A stretch of DNA of 64,000 bases from Gilvimarinus chinensis DSM 19667 (GTDB lineage Bacteria; Pseudomonadota; Gammaproteobacteria; Pseudomonadales; Cellvibrionaceae). The first letter of the stretch is position 1. Each line of letters starts with the position of its first letter. The translations under genes and the position numbers were made by a program. The notes beneath the pieces are model-generated. The model did no database searches. It had not been told where the DNA came from and worked only from the letters and a program-made list of their open reading frames with translations. This document shows positions 1,646-11,121 of the stretch, one piece after another. The DNA lies in assembly GCF_000377745.1 (NCBI RefSeq), contig NZ_KB898707.1:368482-432481 (forward strand), written 5' to 3'.

Positions 1646-1739
1646 TGGCGTGTGGTGGCCGGACTCGAACCGGCGTCCTTCATCGGCCTAGACCTGCTGA
1701 GACTCGCACAGCCGCTCTACCATCTGAGCTACACCACAC
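1646..1739 (-). tRNA. non-canonical tRNA or tRNA-like gene, identity unassigned
   Basis: The minus strand folds as a cloverleaf: acceptor GTGTGGTG with CACCACAC (8 bp), canonical U8-A9, D arm GCTC/GAGC with a GG-containing loop, a T arm GCCGG-TTCGAGT-CCGGC, discriminator G and encoded CCA. Two parts are abnormal. The anticodon stem GCTGT/TCAGC ends in a U-U mismatch, and its loop reads G-C-GAG-T-C, lacking U33 and a purine at 37. The variable region is about 21 nt, as in class II tRNAs, although the D arm looks class I. If functional the anticodon would be GAG (Leu), but the loop argues against ordinary decoding. It starts three bases after a structured RNA element. Confidence 0.6.
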
Positions 1740-1742
1740 TGA

Positions 1743-1904
1743 AAAGGACTCTTGTGTCTCGGCGTTCGACCTGTCACGTTTCGCTTCGGCCATCACAAAC
1801 CTACTGAGGTAGGTTTCGGCATACTCTTGCTAATCCGCCAGCTGCCTTAAGTCACACATGGATAAACCAAGAGCCCTTTCCAGTGCCGCCTCTATTCGAG
1901 GCGG
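1743..1904 (-). ncRNA. structured RNA element, copy B
   Basis: On the minus strand a GC hairpin (CCGCCTC/GAGGCGG, 1886-1904) is followed by GCACT and then by one strand of a 12-bp helix (1868-1879) closed with 1743-1754, with one G-U pair. Inside lies an extra hairpin (AAACCTAC/GTAGGTTT, 1796-1815). The same arrangement, with the G-U pair in the same place and a compensatory G-C to U-A change, recurs at 3654-3743, so this looks like a conserved RNA and not random pairing. It fills the gap before the tRNA-like gene. I cannot match it to a known riboswitch or leader class. Confidence 0.5.
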
Positions 1905-1910
1905 AGTGGG

Positions 1911-2120
1911 TTAGCCGCGACTATCAAAGCCGCGTATGTTTTCAATCGGCAGCCATCGGTCGTTATGCAAAACCATGCAGCCCTGAATTGGCCCGTAGTC
2001 GGAATCATCAAAAGATTTCCCTTTGGCGCTACACTTGTAAGAACCAAAGCCGTAATTAAGAGCAAACACAACTAGAAGAATTATGAATACAGCCAAGAAT
2101 TGAGCTGTTAAGTCTTTCAT
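1911..2120 (-). CDS. small membrane-anchored protein (69 aa)
   Basis: The start at 2120 (MKDLTAQF) is chosen because GGGAG lies about 8 bases upstream; the two earlier in-frame ATGs are too close to it or lack one. Residues about 5-25 form a transmembrane helix (FLAVFIILLVVFALNYGFG), followed by a short polar domain with two Cys (YKCSAKG and QGCMVLH) that could form a disulfide if exported. No family is recognised. It is a member of the leftward early operon just before structured RNA copy B. Confidence 0.55.
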   Translation of the reverse strand: MKDLTAQFLAVFIILLVVFALNYGFGSYKCSAKGKSFDDSDYGPIQGCMVLHNDRWLPIENIRGFDSRG

Positions 2121-2161
2121 TGCCATATCTCCCACAATGAGCCCATAGGGGCGGTTAGTTA

Positions 2162-2365
2162 CTAAAATGGAATCGATTCAACGCGCTTGTAATCGACTTC
2201 TACGCGCTGCGCCGTTCCGATATGTGCCAACACATGAAATTGCTTGCCTGGGTTTGCTTTAGCCAGGCGCTTGGCTTCAATCTCTGCCGATTTCTCCGTG
2301 TCGTGCCGGAAGTTTGGCGGCCAGCCGTCAGGGGTCCACACAAGATAAAACTCTGGGTTTTGCAT
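2162..2365 (-). CDS. hypothetical protein (67 aa)
   Basis: ATG at 2365 follows GAGGTGAGGGAT, a good ribosome binding site; the longer frame upstream reads through the previous gene and is less likely. The protein begins MQNPEFYLVWTPDG, reminiscent of small phage proteins with a WxPxG start and a mixed alpha/beta fold, and has no membrane segment. It carries a basic middle section (EIEAKRLAKANPGK). Function unknown. Confidence 0.55.
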   Translation of the reverse strand: MQNPEFYLVWTPDGWPPNFRHDTEKSAEIEAKRLAKANPGKQFHVLAHIGTAQRVEVDYKRVESIPF

Positions 2366-2375
2366 ATCCCTCACC

Positions 2376-2672
2376 TCAATGATTCGGTGTGTTAATCGCG
2401 TCAATCGAAACCAGGGCAAACGATTCCGCAATAGTTAAAGTTGCAGTCCTGGCCGTTTCTCTGTCCTGTAGCGATTCGATAACGTGGTCAGGAACCTCGC
2501 TAAACCCTTCGACCGATTCTTTAACGGCGGTGACGCACCGGCCGCGCTCTTCGGTTGTGGCTTTTAGCCAAGCCGCTTTTACTATTCGGCGTGCAAAGGC
2601 TCGGTCGTCTTCGCCTTCGTGTCGTTTGGCTATGCTGTCGCCGCTTTTTCGCCAGTAGTCGCAAAATTCCAT
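2376..2672 (-). CDS. hypothetical protein (98 aa)
   Basis: A soluble, charged protein, probably alpha-helical through residues 10-90, with one WRKSGD motif near the start and no recognisable domain. It follows rdgC after 33 bases and so is probably co-transcribed with it. Nothing in the sequence assigns a role. Confidence 0.55.
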   Translation of the reverse strand: MEFCDYWRKSGDSIAKRHEGEDDRAFARRIVKAAWLKATTEERGRCVTAVKESVEGFSEVPDHVIESLQDRETARTATLTIAESFALVSIDAINTPNH

Positions 2673-2705
2673 TCCTATCTCCAGTTGGTGTGTGTTGGCC
2701 CGCTC

Positions 2706-3605
2706 TTACGCTGCCGGTTCAAACAACTCTTGGTTAACCGCTCCGCCCAGGCCTCGACAAAGAGCCTCTAAGGCTGACTCGACTTGGTTTGCGGACAGGA
2801 CTATATTTCCGAGCATCAGGGCTTTTAAGTTGTCCTCTACCTGGTCTGCCACCTCGTTTATTTTTTCGTCGTCAAATCTGAGGCTCTTGATCGCAAGCGA
2901 TTCATTGACGGTGAAGGTCAGGGCGTCGTGCTTTAGGCGAAGCGCGGTTACCAGCAAGCCGTTGTCGATGTGCGTGCTAACTTGTTCCGCCAAATCATCG
3001 TCATTTCTGCAGGTATGAGTAGCGTCTGTTTTGGGTGATTGCAGCTTGCAGTAGTTACCAAGTTCGAAAGAGGTAGGCAGGCCATCTTTAAGCCACTGAG
3101 TTGCCGATGAGGAAAATGGCATTTGGGTTGAAACAGGAACTGCTTTCAGGCTGCCCAAAGCATCGCGGAGCAAGCTGCAAACTTCTTCACTTCGAGCGGC
3201 GCTGGACTCATCCACAATTAGCAGGTGCTTAGTTTTATCGAGCACGGCCATGCTCAGGCGGCGTTTAGTGAACGCCTGCGGCAATAGGCTGAAGGTAATC
3301 TCATCTTTTATGTTTTCGCGCTCTTTACGACCTACAGGGCGATTTTCCTGGGTGCGAATGTCTTCTACCTTTTCGGCGACGTATTGACGAATTACCGATG
3401 GAGGTAAAATCTTTTCCTCGGTTGCCACACAGAACACAACAAAGCGGTCTATCTCCGTGGCGAGCTGATCCAACTCGTTCGGAATGAAAAAGCCGGCACG
3501 GCATGTGTCCATTTTCCCGCATGGCTCAAAAGCTTTTTCCTGCAGTATCTCGCTGGTGATAGCTGGCAGGCTCGATAGCGTGTAAATGTTGGCGTTCTTG
3601 AACAT
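2706..3605 (-). CDS. rdgC: RdgC-type recombination-associated protein
   Basis: The protein has the RdgC opening (MFKNANIYTL...PCGKMDTCRAGF) and a 299-residue length typical of the family. Known RdgC is a ring-shaped dimer that coats double-stranded DNA without sequence preference and restrains RecA filament formation. Next to RecT, a YqaJ-type exonuclease and a DnaQ-type exonuclease it probably modulates phage recombination and replication-fork processing. It is led by a 200-base untranslated stretch holding structured RNA copy A, whose 3' edge lies about 49 bases before the start codon, so rdgC is the gene most likely to be influenced by that RNA. Phage-borne rdgC genes are known, though most copies are chromosomal. 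Confidence 0.85.
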   Translation of the reverse strand: MFKNANIYTLSSLPAITSEILQEKAFEPCGKMDTCRAGFFIPNELDQLATEIDRFVVFCVATEEKILPPSVIRQYVAEKVEDIRTQENRPVGRKERENIKDEITFSLLPQAFTKRRLSMAVLDKTKHLLIVDESSAARSEEVCSLLRDALGSLKAVPVSTQMPFSSSATQWLKDGLPTSFELGNYCKLQSPKTDATHTCRNDDDLAEQVSTHIDNGLLVTALRLKHDALTFTVNESLAIKSLRFDDEKINEVADQVEDNLKALMLGNIVLSANQVESALEALCRGLGGAVNQELFEPAA

Positions 3606-3653
3606 ATGCTTACCTTGGAATTAGGCCCCTAAAAAGGGCGGTTTAAATCACTA

Positions 3654-3743
3654 TTAAAGACTCTGGTGCCTCGCCCGTTCAGGCCCATAACGGGGTTGTC
3701 AGTTTTCCAGAGCCTTTAAAAGTGCCCCCTGTTTCCAAGGGGC
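3654..3743 (-). ncRNA. structured RNA element, copy A, in the rdgC leader
   Basis: On the minus strand hairpin GCCCC/GGGGGC (3724-3743) is followed by GCACT, then a 13-bp helix between 3707-3719 and 3654-3666 with one G-U pair, enclosing a CCCGTT/AACGGG hairpin. The 3' strand of the long helix is preceded by GAACGGGCGAGGCAC, close to GAACGCCGAGACAC in copy B. No promoter or U-tract is visible, so it is probably part of the operon mRNA. It could be a cis-regulator of rdgC, an antitermination site or a processed small RNA. Confidence 0.5.
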
Positions 3744-4473: not shown

Positions 4474-6126
4474 TTATGCCGCGACGCGGATTTGCATCTG
4501 CTTAATCCAATGCTCAGCCGTGTTGATGCTGACGCTGTAGTGCTCAGCGATTAAGTGAATGATTTCGTCGTCGCTGGGGCGGTAGGGCGCCGCTGGTTTT
4601 TGTGTGGTGCCCATAAGCTCGTTCACATCGCGCGGAACGCTCGCCGCCTGATCTTGGTTGTCGTCGCGCATATCGGGCGCAGGCTGGCGAACAACGGCGC
4701 TTTGCTCTGCGCACTCAAGAGCTATACGGTTGGCTTCGTCTCGCTCGGCTTGGGCTTTCTCTGCCGCTTCTTTCTCTGCTCGCTGGCGTTCCTCTTCGCG
4801 GATACGCTGGCGCTCAGCTTCCGCTTTGCGCTCTTCCTCGGCCTTGTGGTCTGCAATGCGCTGCTTGGCGATTGCGGCCAGGGCCTCGGAATCTTTCAGG
4901 CAAAGCTCTTGTTTGTCGGCAAACAGGAAGTCATAGCCTTCTGCCAGATCGGCAAGCAGGTTTAAGTTGGCTTCGATGGTGTTGGCAAAGCGGTTGGCTT
5001 CTACCTTCGCCCGCATTACTTCGTCGTTCGCCGCGCCGCGTAGCGTGTCGATAGTGCGCTTACCTTTCATGGCACCGGCAACATCGCACGCAATTTCAGG
5101 CAGCCGGCAGGGCGATAGCTTGGCGTTAACTTCATTCACATAGCTGGCCCAGGCGTTGCGGGCGGTAGTTGCTATTTCAGTGCGAATCTCTTTTTTGCGG
5201 CTCTCTACCTGACGATTTAGGTTTAACCGCTTCTGGCGGGTTGCTTCTTTCAGTTCGTCGATAGTGCGCATTAGCTGGTCAATATCGGCGGTTTGCGACA
5301 GTGCCTGCTCTTTGGTTAACTCCAGCTTTTTCTCTACGCCTTCGCACCACTTGACGGTCGTGGCAGCATCGGCAAAGTCCTGATCGGTGTTCAGATCCGT
5401 GCTTATTGCATCCAGCACGGCCAAAGCGTGCTCTTTGTATGTGGGCAGGTTGGTGGTCTTCACGCCGCCAGTAATTTCTACGATAAGCGCGGGCAGGTTT
5501 TCCGGTGTTTTTCCTTCGAGTTGTACCGTAGCTTCTACCGGCTGGTAGTTTTCTAAATCCTGAATAAAGATTTTCCAGCCTTCAATTAGCTGCTCGCGGC
5601 GCTCAGGGCGGGATTTATAAACCAGTCGCGCAGCGCCTTCCTCGGTGCCATCGGTGACCTCGAACACACAAGAGTCATTGCCGTTTACTAAAAGCTGATG
5701 TTCAAGTTGCCAATAATGCTTGCCCTCTAGCTCACCGCCAGAAGATACAAGAGCGTGCAGCGCCTGGTTATGCTGCTTGCACTCCCAGTGGTTATCCTCA
5801 AACATGGTCAGTCCGTCGTAGGACGCCAGCAGTTTTAAGCCTGCCACCTCTTCGGTAGCAGTGACTGGGTACAGCTCTTCACCAATCGCTTTTTCGGCAA
5901 ATGGGCGTGCTAGGGCTTCAACTTCATGGCCTTTAGCGAAAACGAATTTTTCTACCCACTCGTCATGCACCTGCTCGTCGCCGGTCGCTTTAAGGCGCAG
6001 CAGCTCGTCACGAGAAACATTGGGTGAGGCACCCATGATGATAGGGGCCTCAGAGGCTACGCAGAATTCGCCGCGTATTTTTTTCCACTCGGGGCTGCCT
6101 TGAACTAAATTTTCTAAAGTTTTCAC
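4474..6126 (-). CDS. YqaJ-type recombination exonuclease with long C-terminal extension
   Basis: Residues 1-210 are a lambda-exonuclease/YqaJ-type nuclease: GSPEWKKIRG at the start, a GHEVEALARP segment, ASYDGLT carrying the metal-binding Asp, and WECKQHNQ, the E-x-K catalytic motif. Such enzymes resect 5' strands and hand 3' tails to a RecT annealase. At 550 residues it is more than twice a minimal YqaJ protein. Residues about 250-440 look like a DUF1351-type helical region, followed by a strongly charged coiled coil (about 440-490) and a C-terminal helix-turn-helix-like segment (about 515-548). The start ATG overlaps the recT stop (ATGA), so the nuclease and annealase are co-translated. Confidence 0.85.
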   Translation of the reverse strand: MKTLENLVQGSPEWKKIRGEFCVASEAPIIMGASPNVSRDELLRLKATGDEQVHDEWVEKFVFAKGHEVEALARPFAEKAIGEELYPVTATEEVAGLKLLASYDGLTMFEDNHWECKQHNQALHALVSSGGELEGKHYWQLEHQLLVNGNDSCVFEVTDGTEEGAARLVYKSRPERREQLIEGWKIFIQDLENYQPVEATVQLEGKTPENLPALIVEITGGVKTTNLPTYKEHALAVLDAISTDLNTDQDFADAATTVKWCEGVEKKLELTKEQALSQTADIDQLMRTIDELKEATRQKRLNLNRQVESRKKEIRTEIATTARNAWASYVNEVNAKLSPCRLPEIACDVAGAMKGKRTIDTLRGAANDEVMRAKVEANRFANTIEANLNLLADLAEGYDFLFADKQELCLKDSEALAAIAKQRIADHKAEEERKAEAERQRIREEERQRAEKEAAEKAQAERDEANRIALECAEQSAVVRQPAPDMRDDNQDQAASVPRDVNELMGTTQKPAAPYRPSDDEIIHLIAEHYSVSINTAEHWIKQMQIRVAA

Positions 6127-7061
6127 TGTTGCGCCTCCTGGGCCAAAGCGGCCGCGTCAAGTTCGATGTTTTTCAGTTTTTCAAATTGCTTGTCGGTCAT
6201 TTGAGCCTTAGACGACACCTTGTTTTTGATAAACGCAGCGTTAGCCTTGCCTTCCATAATCGCGCTCTTCCAGGTGCTAAGGTTCGCCTTGAACTCTTCA
6301 TCGCTGTAAATGGGCAATTCTTCTGGCTCGGTTGCTCGACCTTCACTTTTGGGGGTTATGTCCCGAGGCTCGGACGAATCAAAGTTGTTGATTTCGTCGG
6401 GCGTGTAAACGCCAAGAATCACATCTGGTGTATGTAGGCGAGACCATTTTTTTATGCCCAGGTAAGCCAGCTGTAAACGTGGATCGTCAGCCCATAGAGT
6501 GCTGTTGCGTGTCCGCGCTTGTGCAAGCAAAACCTCAAGCACGCGCGGTTCATCTTCACCTCTAAGGGTTCCAGTGATTCGAACGCCCAAGCCTTCCTCG
6601 TCTGCCAGTTTCCAGCCAGGAATACGGTATTCGCCGTTCGAGCCATTTTTAATTTCAAACTTTCCGGTAACTTTCGACCAATCACCAAACCACTCGTAAT
6701 TGAGTCGGCCTTTAATGGGGGCGTTTGATGTGATAACGGCGTTGACAAGTTGAGCCTCGTAACCCAAAACACCTTTAACTGTGTGTGTCTTTTGGGCAAC
6801 GGCGTAAGGGTTCATCTTCCATTGCATTGACTGCATAATTACGGCGAGGCAGTCAGACGCATTGCCCTGTAGATGTTCTGGGATAGTGGCAACACCTCCG
6901 GCCATGATTTCAGCTAAGCGCATCATTTTGTCCATAGCGTCGGGATCTAGCACCAACGATGTAGTACTGGTCTTATGCTCTGGATAGCGGTTTAAATCGT
7001 CAGCTGCTGATTCGCTGACAATGTCGCGGCTAGGCGAATCATTTTTAGCTTGCATATTCAT
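6123..7061 (-). CDS. recT: RecT-family single-strand annealing protein
   Basis: Residues about 60-220 carry the RecT core: CLAVIMQSMQWKMNPYAVAQ, GVLGYEAQLVNAVI and DPRLQLAYLGIKKWSR. RecT proteins coat single-stranded tails made by the partner exonuclease and anneal them to complementary strands, allowing RecA-independent recombination of phage DNA. The N-terminal 45 residues are low-complexity and the C-terminal 80 are charged and variable, as in other members. It overlaps both neighbours by ATGA and is the second gene of the PL operon. Confidence 0.9.
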   Translation of the reverse strand: MNMQAKNDSPSRDIVSESAADDLNRYPEHKTSTTSLVLDPDAMDKMMRLAEIMAGGVATIPEHLQGNASDCLAVIMQSMQWKMNPYAVAQKTHTVKGVLGYEAQLVNAVITSNAPIKGRLNYEWFGDWSKVTGKFEIKNGSNGEYRIPGWKLADEEGLGVRITGTLRGEDEPRVLEVLLAQARTRNSTLWADDPRLQLAYLGIKKWSRLHTPDVILGVYTPDEINNFDSSEPRDITPKSEGRATEPEELPIYSDEEFKANLSTWKSAIMEGKANAAFIKNKVSSKAQMTDKQFEKLKNIELDAAALAQEAQQ

Positions 7062-8438: not shown

Positions 8439-8697
8439 GCAGTAGCGCTTCGTCCGCATCTTGAGCGGTACCGTACAGCTTGGCGCGGATGACACGCAGC
8501 GGGGTATTGGTTCTTAGAAAGAACCCAAATTCGTCACCACCAGGGGAAGCAAAGGCCATTTTGCAGGCACCGGAAGATAACTTCTCAATAAGGCGCTGGA
8601 TTTTCGGCGCGTATTCCTGTTTATGTTTTTTGCTGCTGTTTTCGTTGGAAAAACGCATGATGAGCAACACTGTCCGTTTATTGTAATCCTCTATCAT
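8335..8697 (-). CDS. hypothetical protein co-transcribed with the cI repressor (120 aa)
   Basis: The start ATG (8697) overlaps the stop of cI (TAATG), so it should be translated from the repressor mRNA in the lysogen. A longer frame upstream lies within cI and is not needed. The protein starts MIEDYNKRTVLLIMRFS, has a beta-alpha pattern and a Gly/Asp-rich middle (ASPGGDEFGFFLRTNTPLR), no membrane segment and no recognised domain. Genes riding on the repressor transcript often protect the lysogen from other phages, so it is a candidate defence or immunity accessory gene. Confidence 0.6.
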   Translation of the reverse strand: MIEDYNKRTVLLIMRFSNENSSKKHKQEYAPKIQRLIEKLSSGACKMAFASPGGDEFGFFLRTNTPLRVIRAKLYGTAQDADEALLLSGDSLLALEIGSDFDGQGYSAAWTWLQHHHGKD

Positions 8698-9338
8698 TAT
8701 CGCCTCTTCATCCAGCTGCCGGTTACCACGCCACAAATACGGGTGTCAGGCGGTATCTGTATTTTTCGGTTGGGGTGATCGGGATTTAAAGCCAGTAGAA
8801 ACATGCCGTCCGGCGTGTCTTGCAGACGCTTAAACGTATGGCGGCCATCGGGCTCGCGCGCCACTACGTCGTCGCCGTGCTTTGGCTCAATGGCAGGATC
8901 TACCAGTATGTATTCGCCTTCGCGGTAATCAGGCGTCATAGAGTCACCCACGATTTTCAGGCAAAAGGAGTGGTCGCTAAACGGGAAAGGGCAGTCTAGG
9001 TATTCTTCTGCATCACCTGGTGCATAGTTATCTGGCGAGTCGCACCAAGCCCCGGCTGCCACCCAAGCTATGAGAGGAACTTGTCTGGTGGCGGCAATTG
9101 CAGCCTCTTCCTGTAGTGATCCATCACTATGTAGTCGGTCAAGCCAGCCATGGGGTTTTTTGAACGCCTGCTCAATCTCTCGCGCTACCTTGTTGCCAAT
9201 CTTCTTTCTCGGCTTTTTTCCTGCTATTGCGCTGGTGTAGGCAGGCGCTTTACCTATAGCGTCACCGAAAGCAACTAGGCTGCCCACGGAGGAGACAATA
9301 GCTCGAGTATTTGTATATCTAATCTCTGATATGTCCAT
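8697..9338 (-). CDS. CI-like prophage repressor, S24/LexA-type self-cleaving
   Basis: The N-terminal 65 residues have a helix-turn-helix of the phage repressor type (LVAFGDAIGKAPAYTSAIAG). The C-terminal half is a LexA/S24 peptidase domain: Ala95-Gly96 (VAAGAW) as autocleavage site, catalytic Ser133 in VGDSMTP and catalytic Lys170 in HTFKR. In this family RecA filaments stimulate self-cleavage, so the prophage should be SOS-inducible. Transcription starts at PRM, next to three operators shared with the divergent cro gene, which also allows autoregulation. Length 213 residues is normal. Confidence 0.92.
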   Translation of the reverse strand: MDISEIRYTNTRAIVSSVGSLVAFGDAIGKAPAYTSAIAGKKPRKKIGNKVAREIEQAFKKPHGWLDRLHSDGSLQEEAAIAATRQVPLIAWVAAGAWCDSPDNYAPGDAEEYLDCPFPFSDHSFCLKIVGDSMTPDYREGEYILVDPAIEPKHGDDVVAREPDGRHTFKRLQDTPDGMFLLALNPDHPNRKIQIPPDTRICGVVTGSWMKRR

Positions 9339-9725: not shown

Positions 9726-10001
9726 ATGTACGACGATCCAAGAAAAGTGCGGTATATCCGCAAAGCTACTTATCTCAGTGAAATTGAATTGGAAGAAATA
9801 GAGCAAGCGTCCAGCATCGCAGGGCAGCAACCCGCGGCCTTTATGCGCGAAGCGGCAAAGGTTGTATCGCGCTTCATTCTCGGGCAGTCCGGTGTGAAGC
9901 CAAAAGCCGATCTTCTTCAATCTGTCCAATCTCGCCTCCGTTCTCAGGCCCGCCCAGGGGCAGCCAATGACGAGAACATTTTATTTTCCCTCGCTAGCTA
10001 A
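9726..10001 (+). CDS. small regulator-like protein, CII position (91 aa)
   Basis: Start behind GGGGAAGCAACC. The N-terminal half (YIRKATYLSEIELEEIEQAS, then GQQPAAFMREAAKVV) has the strand-helix-helix look of ribbon-helix-helix or MobC/CopG-type DNA-binding proteins. Its place after cro and before a terminator is where lambdoid phages keep cII, so it may be a transcription activator for lysogeny, but no CII signature is visible. Function is inferred from position. Confidence 0.55.
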   Translation: MYDDPRKVRYIRKATYLSEIELEEIEQASSIAGQQPAAFMREAAKVVSRFILGQSGVKPKADLLQSVQSRLRSQARPGAANDENILFSLAS

Positions 10002-10074: not shown

Positions 10075-11121
10075 ATGCAGATTAATCGAGACGGAAAAGT
10101 AATATTTTCGGACGCAAAATTTATCGTACGTGAAGACCCCAAAGAAAGTCCAATTGGTGCTGGTTGGGAAAAAGCGTTCAAGCGAGAAGTTTTTAAGCGC
10201 ATCGTGCAGCAGCTAAATCGCATAGGCTGGACGGTAGAAGTGCCACAAGAAATGGTCGAGAAATACAGTTTAAGCTTTGCGCGAAATTATCGCACCTGCA
10301 GTTACGGCGACCTGCGCGCAGAGCTAAGCTTATGCGGGCGATGTATTGAGTTTGAAGTATGGCAAGGCGTCAACACGCCGACACGCCCAGATCACGGCGG
10401 ACGCTATGAAAGCGACAAAGAACGGGTTATGCCGTATTTACTGCGGCTGCGGATGGAGCGCACGCGCCGCAAAATAAGAGATTACTTATGTGGCGTGTTC
10501 TCAGGCTATACCTTTGTTGATAAGAGCCCTATAACCAAGGAGGTTTCGCCGCGCGGTAAAACGGCAATCCAGGCCATTCAGGATCGCATAGAAGGCTCGT
10601 GGCACTACCGTGCCGACCTTGGCCGCGCCTCTATACATGGTGTTAACGATATTTCGGCCGATGGCTTTGTCATTGAGCACGGCAAAAGCAAGGTCTATGC
10701 GTTTGATCGTAAAGGGCGCGCCATAACCGGGACTGCTTTTTTTGATCTGAACGGCAACTGGATAATTCATACGGGGAAATATGGCCGGTCCTGGCACTGG
10801 CACAACACTATTTATGTCAACAACCCCGGCGACCTGAAAAGAAAACGCAACTCAAGTCTCCGCCGCAAAAGACTTGAGGGGGAGTTAAGTGAAGCCATTA
10901 AGCGCATGGACTTCCTGCGTGCCCACACTCTAAAAGGCATTTTGTTTCCCGCATCACCCCAGTTGTACATGGTGCGCAACCACGAAGGTTACTACCACCG
11001 CGCGAATTTCTGCGGCTACACCACTGACGCTACCGAGGCAGGTAAGTTTGAGTCGCACGAAATAGGCTCATACAGAGAGCGCAATGACGTTATCCCTGTG
11101 CGTGAGGCGGTGTTGTCGTAA
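10075..11121 (+). CDS. hypothetical phage protein of the replication region (348 aa)
   Basis: Not recognised. Residues 1-75 are charged helix; residues about 80-110 contain a CSYGDLRAELSLCGRCIEFEVWQG segment with three Cys; the remainder is beta-rich with repeated aromatic/His patterns (GKYGRSWHWHNTIYVNN). There is a basic stretch (KRKRNSSLRRKRLEGE, about 255-275) suited to nucleic-acid contact. It overlaps the next gene by TAATG, so it is coupled to the replication initiator-like gene and may assist DNA replication. Confidence 0.6.
   Translation: MQINRDGKVIFSDAKFIVREDPKESPIGAGWEKAFKREVFKRIVQQLNRIGWTVEVPQEMVEKYSLSFARNYRTCSYGDLRAELSLCGRCIEFEVWQGVNTPTRPDHGGRYESDKERVMPYLLRLRMERTRRKIRDYLCGVFSGYTFVDKSPITKEVSPRGKTAIQAIQDRIEGSWHYRADLGRASIHGVNDISADGFVIEHGKSKVYAFDRKGRAITGTAFFDLNGNWIIHTGKYGRSWHWHNTIYVNNPGDLKRKRNSSLRRKRLEGELSEAIKRMDFLRAHTLKGILFPASPQLYMVRNHEGYYHRANFCGYTTDATEAGKFESHEIGSYRERNDVIPVREAVLS

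Follow-up and report, generated by a model that had tools for sequence, protein, structure and literature searches.

Gilvimarinus chinensis DSM 19667 carries, in the leftward early operon of a prophage, two copies of a sequence predicted to fold into a small hairpin abutting a long helix, and the question raised by this locus is whether these copies constitute a genuine RNA element and, if so, what such an element does for the phage. Both copies, A and B, lie on the minus strand of the window, that is, the whole stretch of 64,000 nucleotides that was analysed, and each is composed of a GC hairpin (H1) and a helix (H2). The initial annotation had described a two-copy element with a GC hairpin, a helix and a shared motif; these features are present in the sequence, and the ends of the copies are corrected as follows, together with the neighbouring genes.

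3743-3649, minus strand: copy A as a whole, H1 abutting H2
3725..3742, minus strand: H1 of copy A, CCCCUUG GAAA CAGGGGG, with an optional outer pair 3743-3724 (MFE structure and alignment A2)
3649..3724, minus strand: H2 of copy A, arms 3724-3707 (5′) and 3666-3649 (3′) around a loop of 40 nt; inner 3′ motif GAACGGGCGAGGCA
1904-1737, minus strand: copy B as a whole, H1 abutting H2
1886..1904, minus strand: H1 of copy B, CCGCCUC GAAUA GAGGCGG (MFE structure)
1737..1885, minus strand: H2 of copy B, arms 1885-1868 (5′) and 1754-1737 (3′) around a loop of 113 nt; inner 3′ motif GAACGCCGAGACA
1646..1739, minus strand: predicted tRNA-Leu (GAG) (ARAGORN; Rfam RF00005 at 1738-1650, 45.3 bits)
2706..3605, minus strand: rdgC (Pfam RdgC, 5.9e-70), downstream of copy A, 43 nt from H2 to the start codon
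3818..4429, minus strand: RNase T/exonuclease-type gene (Pfam, 4.1e-18), upstream of copy A
6123..7061, minus strand: recT (Pfam, 4e-33), in the same operon direction
8697..9338, minus strand: S24 cI-like repressor (Pfam Peptidase_S24, 4.9e-23), which marks the leftward operon

On the minus strand, the genes run from the S24 repressor through recT, a YqaJ gene and the exonuclease gene to rdgC and small genes, an order that bears out the proposed repressor-side early operon and on which the operon name 'PL' is based; promoter-like sites in the promoter scan are no commoner than in shuffles. Copy A is intercistronic, with the exonuclease gene on one side and rdgC on the other, whereas copy B sits between the ORF 1911-2135 and the predicted tRNA-Leu(GAG), the 5′ end of which overlaps the 3′ end of copy B H2 by 2-3 nt. 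The earlier description, in which one copy leads rdgC and the other abuts a tRNA-like gene, agrees with these positions.

H2 comprises 18 bp in both copies, rather than the 12-13 bp first assigned to it, because CACU/AGUG at its base pairs too; copy A pairs at 17 of the 18 positions, with one U-U mismatch. The fold z-scores of copies A and B are −3.89 and −4.66, respectively, and in neither case does any of 200 dinucleotide shuffles fold as well, while pieces of copy B without one helix arm are less remarkable (z of 0.41 for 1735-1870 and −2.08 for 1780-1915). In alignment A2, which consists of copy A and loop-trimmed copy B (25 pairs, 50 cells), 6 of the 25 pairs differ on both sides between the copies, a stronger signal than the one compensatory change and one added pair originally noticed. 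Its cells are paired in 49 cases of 50 (98%), whereas column shuffles give 87%; the observed values are reached by 5 of 500 shuffles, and sliding the partner lowers pairing to 35-60%. A layout scan of the whole window on both strands ranks copy B first (56.5) and copy A second (50.5), the sole further match scoring at least 46 being one of 49.0 at 11512-11323. By eye, the loops of the two copies are unrelated, except for GAACG and CGAGRCA near the 3′ arm.

A covariance model built from copies A and B (R2) was searched in 392 relatives under strict filters, and its only strong match outside the window is copy C (G000:C1:825066-825165, 56.7 bits, E 2e-8), a further homologue with the same helix in another phage, namely a second prophage of the same genome. 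This prophage has another recombinase (Sak4-like) and its own CI-like repressor, according to a PHROGs run on it, and copy C follows that repressor on the same strand, between the mechanical ORFs 10173-10577 and 9806-9994 of the locus L168. Copy C folds with a z-score of −4.91, matched by none of 200 shuffles. Across the three copies, 7 of the 25 pairs change on both sides, a number that none of 500 shuffles reaches, and the count of further pair types is reached by 12 of 500. Constant in all three are CACU/AGUG and GGCUCU/AGAGUC of the helix, the GAACG motif, and a G-U pair at the same place in H2, as had been noted for A and B; CGAGRCA is limited to A and B, and the H1 sequence of copy A is unlike that of copies B and C, which have a GAAUA pentaloop. 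Taken against shuffles, the fold z-scores and the covariation among A/B and A/B/C uphold the earlier suggestion of selection on RNA structure, and the element with H1 and H2 is very probably real at the RNA level.

The ends of the tRNA region (GTGTGGTG ... CCACCACACGCCAAACAACAGGAG) are identical downstream of copies B and C, but ARAGORN detects no tRNA in L168, so the element is independent of the tRNA; just below position 10066 of L168 (minus strand), the body of the tRNA region is seen to be replaced by other sequence. In addition, when 1915-1730 of the window (minus strand) is folded, the bases before H1 of copy B (GCUA..CCAC) can pair with the tRNA 5′ end (GUGG..UAGC), and copy C can form CACC/GGUG. 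In copy B, this pairing could possibly create a three-way junction that competes with folding of the tRNA.

In the same set of relatives, one other genome, G030, gives a weak R2 match (E 0.55). Copy B itself scores only 25 bits there, compared with 57.5 bits in a search of 68 phage loci (as L035), and it is split into two fragments in other R2 searches, including that of the whole window with filters off; because its long loop accounts for the low score, long-loop copies elsewhere in the 392 relatives could be missed. The window's prophage is present in IMG/VR as 2519103187_000002, with a 100% identical RdgC. Exact patterns of the window helix, run against IMG/VR in three scans of which the first could match copy B only, returned 1, 16 and 46 stretches, of which 1, 2 and 1 belong to this contig, and revealed no second phage with a convincing copy: the other 14 stretches of the second scan pair at no more than 14 of 18 positions, and the next best of the third, L138 and L133, pair at 16 of 20 with interruptions. 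Among 144 family genomes, a pattern fitting copy A only matched its own genome alone, and a one-arm pattern for genome contigs yielded 55 stretches, the best of which pairs at 15 of 18 positions, with no convincing copy. Protein searches in phages returned 34 records for YqaJ and 502 for RdgC. At gathering score, Rfam 15 finds only the tRNA in the window and no family at the element; this negative and the finding of copy C, both of which could have gone against the initial annotation, count in its favour. The window element is a class for which no name was found, absent from Rfam 15 at that score and from the literature searched by description, in keeping with the failure of the initial annotation to recognise it.

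A second type of element emerges upstream of RecT genes. With the recT of the window as a query for related phage loci, the best non-self R2 matches in the 68 phage loci are L074 (E 0.03) and L039 (E 0.29), and in both loci a long helix with an adjoining hairpin is found upstream of recT. A layout scan covering 3.5 kb upstream of recT, with a main cut-off score of 55, finds this arrangement on the sense strand in 23 of 66 RecT loci, which are related to one another so that the 23 cases are not independent, versus none of 66 on the antisense strand, none of 198 shuffles and none of 52 downstream stretches. Lowering the score to 50 gives 26 sense, 8 antisense, 0 shuffled and 0 downstream matches, and to 44 gives 27, 14, 1 and 0, respectively. 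The typical helix of this type, hereafter the Pseudomonas type, is GCAUCGGGGUGUGAUCUG / CAGAUCACACCCCGAUGC, and its arm pattern, with two free positions per arm, matches 78 stretches of IMG/VR and none of 390 order genomes. A 221-base query that includes the element finds piecewise matches in 29 phage records (E limit 10, with 14 of the 29 above 0.01), comprising 26 Pseudomonas records by name, one from Edwardsiella (in a tail-fibre gene) and two others; a hypothetical protein is annotated over the matched piece in 5 of the 29 rows, and in the phage regions read no RNA feature is annotated at the element.

Seven Pseudomonas phage records, five whole and two nearly whole, were chosen because they matched the query and hence show the location of the element rather than its frequency. 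At a score of at least 52, the layout scan detects the element once in each of them, and Aurca01 has a second copy (50.5), the loops of the two being unrelated. In six of the seven, the element shares its strand with the repressor gene, which it follows, and is flanked by genes of that same strand; the seventh, SC_8, is too sparsely annotated. Six other matches at score 52, in L177, L178 and L182, fall by position inside annotated genes, three of them within one repeat. A 20-kb stretch of phage D3 has no leftward-strand layout scoring at least 46, and three matches (52.0, 50.0 and 48.0) on the opposite strand.

In alignment A3, made of 14 distinct Pseudomonas-type elements, 97.7% of 261 cells are paired and both sides change in 13 of the 19 pairs, involving 32 cells; none of 500 shuffles reaches any of the five measures, and pairing drops to 29-46% when the partner is slid. 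Likewise, in 25 unique elements, the arms pair with their own partners at 416 of 450 positions and with swapped ones at 81%, the mis-registered L039 being counted as broken pairs. The loops behave differently. Orientation could be assigned to 70 of the 78 loci, and these 70 have 15 unrelated classes of loop; 22 loops (one per class, four more phage loops, and those of copies A, B and C) are no more structured than shuffles, with a mean z of 0.07. The combination of varied, unstructured loops with a covarying helix indicates that the stem is kept and the loop exchanged. The base CAUCGG/CCGAUG recurs in most Pseudomonas-type helices listed, which were partly found through that sequence, and many of the 32 aligned elements have conserved stretches before H1 and after H2.

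Several other features of these loci were noticed, the first two of them by eye. In most of the 32 aligned elements, CCGA stands just before H1 and could pair with UCGG of the H2 base before the 3′ arm is made, making strand exchange a possibility in the Pseudomonas type; CCGA before H1 is not seen in copies A, B or C. About 60-110 nt past H2 in L046, L075, L179 and others, a ribosome-binding-like stretch is followed by a start-stop minigene (ATGTGA, ATGTAA, ATGTAG, ATGAAATAG), reminiscent of the lambda bar minigenes. A second long inverted repeat, with 20 paired bases and a loop of 31-32, lies past the element but before the next annotated gene (L172 6195-6269, L174 6791-6865 and L170 7350-7425). 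Another hairpin-plus-long-helix type, of different sequence and with a short loop, is located upstream of recT in L086 (7964-8042), L044 (7868-7946) and L038 (3482-3560), all of which are included in the 23 counted RecT loci.

Whether the two types form one family is a separate matter. They have in common the layout, that is, a hairpin abutting a long helix with a free loop, as well as the leftward operon and tandem copies (A/B and Aurca01). Like the window copies, the Pseudomonas-type element is intergenic, on the sense strand, with a helix of 17-24 bp and a variable loop, but it differs from them in helix sequence and in having longer conserved flanks. R2 gives five weak matches in the 78 Pseudomonas-type loci, none on the element proper (two touch its edge), none on the element in the seven Pseudomonas phage records, and none in 75 control loci. 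Judged from these model searches, common descent of the two types is only a possibility, as is convergence.

Given that no gene common to the carriers stood out in an unsystematic look, we infer that the element works in cis, affecting the transcript that carries it by way of host machinery. The likeliest single mechanism, proposed tentatively, is that of an intercistronic processing or stability stalk. H1 would be stacked end to end on H2, a putative stacking that would create a near-continuous duplex of about 25 bp, well suited to a double-strand RNase of RNase III type; cleavage by such an enzyme would split the polycistronic early transcript into units and would release the 5′ leader of the tRNA at copy B. 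The loop would be a spacer, which is consistent with the free loop observed. The long, largely perfect intercistronic duplex characteristic of RNase III sites is found here (18 bp, 17 of 18 in copy A, plus the abutting H1). Some points sit uneasily with processing: constancy of the H2 base is left unexplained, as cleavage by RNase III would require neither the constant CACU/AGUG and GGCUCU/AGAGUC of the three window-type copies nor the CAUCGG/CCGAUG of most listed Pseudomonas-type helices, the two types are only possibly homologous, and 18 bp with a mismatch in copy A is short for an RNase III-type enzyme unless H1 truly stacks.

The reading closest to the original one is antitermination, in which H1-H2 of the nascent transcript would dock on RNA polymerase, independently of an N protein, and allow it to read through the terminators of the leftward operon, as put does in HK022. 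The idea is attractive because put also consists of two adjacent stem-loops with essentially no linker, an arrangement shared by the window copies, and because it works in an early operon with no dedicated phage protein, putL and putR serving one early operon each (PMC9378689). According to the same source, put measures about 70 nt, its stem II is short, and its specific residues comprise 26 named positions (PMC9378689). A leftward early operon, the sense strand, a constant stem base and a free loop would all suit such a mechanism, in which the enzyme would be contacted by the junction and stem bases only, so that the H2 loop would not matter; moreover, a strong terminator starts 21 nt past the element in AUS531phi, and others 140 and 152 nt past theirs in L179 and L176. 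At the put positions, copies A, B and C agree at only 15, 13 and 14 of 26, below the best of 16-17 obtained by chance in the window, whereas HK022 putL (in L117) agrees at 26 of 26, and membership in put by sequence is rejected. Lambda nut is rejected as well: relative to the boxA/boxB consensus, the best boxA-like 9-mer within 120 nt upstream has 4 of 9 mismatches in A, B and C. No rightward-side copy is found in the window by R2 with filters off and the layout scan, which could miss diverged copies, nor in the rightward early operon of the seven Pseudomonas phage records at score 52, whereas HK022 has both putL and putR. In the 600 nt that follow the element, terminators are not enriched, with 3 of 32 Pseudomonas-type elements against 64 of 1074 background windows, and copies A and B are kilobases away from the repressor region. 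Antitermination specifically, as first proposed, is thus not supported by put residues, boxA, a rightward copy or terminator enrichment; a put-like mechanism is still conceivable but on the unlikely side, and the intercistronic position, near-continuous duplex, free loops, tandem copies and tRNA beside copy B fit the processing or stability stalk better. A broader version, in which a wide, undescribed class of two-stem RNA would allow temperate phages of Pseudomonas and its relatives to run the leftward operon without N, through put-like contacts of H1 and the H2 base with RNA polymerase and with the H2 loop as a free site of sequence exchange, is rather doubtful.

Local control of the next gene, at the level of translation or message stability, would make the element a structured leader that serves rdgC and also the small gene following the tRNA. 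The position of copy A just ahead of rdgC speaks for it, as do the ribosome-site-like stretches and minigenes seen by eye behind several Pseudomonas-type elements, but the downstream genes vary among the annotated phages read and, at copy B, the tRNA stands between the element and the gene, which leaves this explanation unlikely. Variable loops, of at least 15 unrelated classes, might alternatively be the payload, the element then serving as precursor to trans-acting small RNAs or to decoys. By eye, the loops of L043 and L063 look tRNA-like, with D-arm- and T-arm-like pieces, a likeness dropped because ARAGORN matches at lowered threshold fall on both strands and in non-elements; the loops being no more structured than shuffles, and Rfam families being rejected at gathering score both in the window and at the element in the seven loci scanned, such a role is improbable. 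As for DNA, long inverted repeats with constant ends and a changing inside, found in many phage contigs, could represent paired operator half-sites or the ends of a recombination site or mobile element. A DNA inverted repeat would not need the G-U pair kept in three of three window-type copies, one DNA-binding protein would not explain two copies per phage (A/B; Aurca01) with different self-complementary arms, and H1 adjoins one side only; on these grounds a DNA operator is rejected, and the DNA-level reading as a whole is highly improbable. The remaining probability, beyond these five named mechanisms, belongs to something else.

There are few examples in which RNA alone controls early phage transcripts, and a strongly covarying element that several Pseudomonas phages have in their leftward operon, where no RNA is annotated, is a concrete target. 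A constant stem with freely exchanged loops is, in addition, an unusual pattern for a conserved RNA.

Among known systems, lambda nut has a small GC hairpin with a GAA-type loop, like H1, whose loop is the pentaloop GAAUA in B and C, but boxA precedes boxB in nut, whereas the window copies are without a boxA-like site in the upstream 120 nt and H1 varies between A and B/C. Precedents for processing are the RNase III hairpin of the lambda N leader and the early RNase III sites of T7, which are likewise long leader or intercistronic duplexes of early phage messages and which, to our knowledge, have no abutting hairpin partner or constant stem base. The c4 antisense RNA (RF01695) is also a structured phage RNA (PMC2864571), but the element has no Rfam match at gathering score. 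Finally, HK022 put has a short stem II and serves both early operons, whereas the window copies have a long H2 whose loop measures 40-113 nt and are situated in the middle of the leftward operon only.
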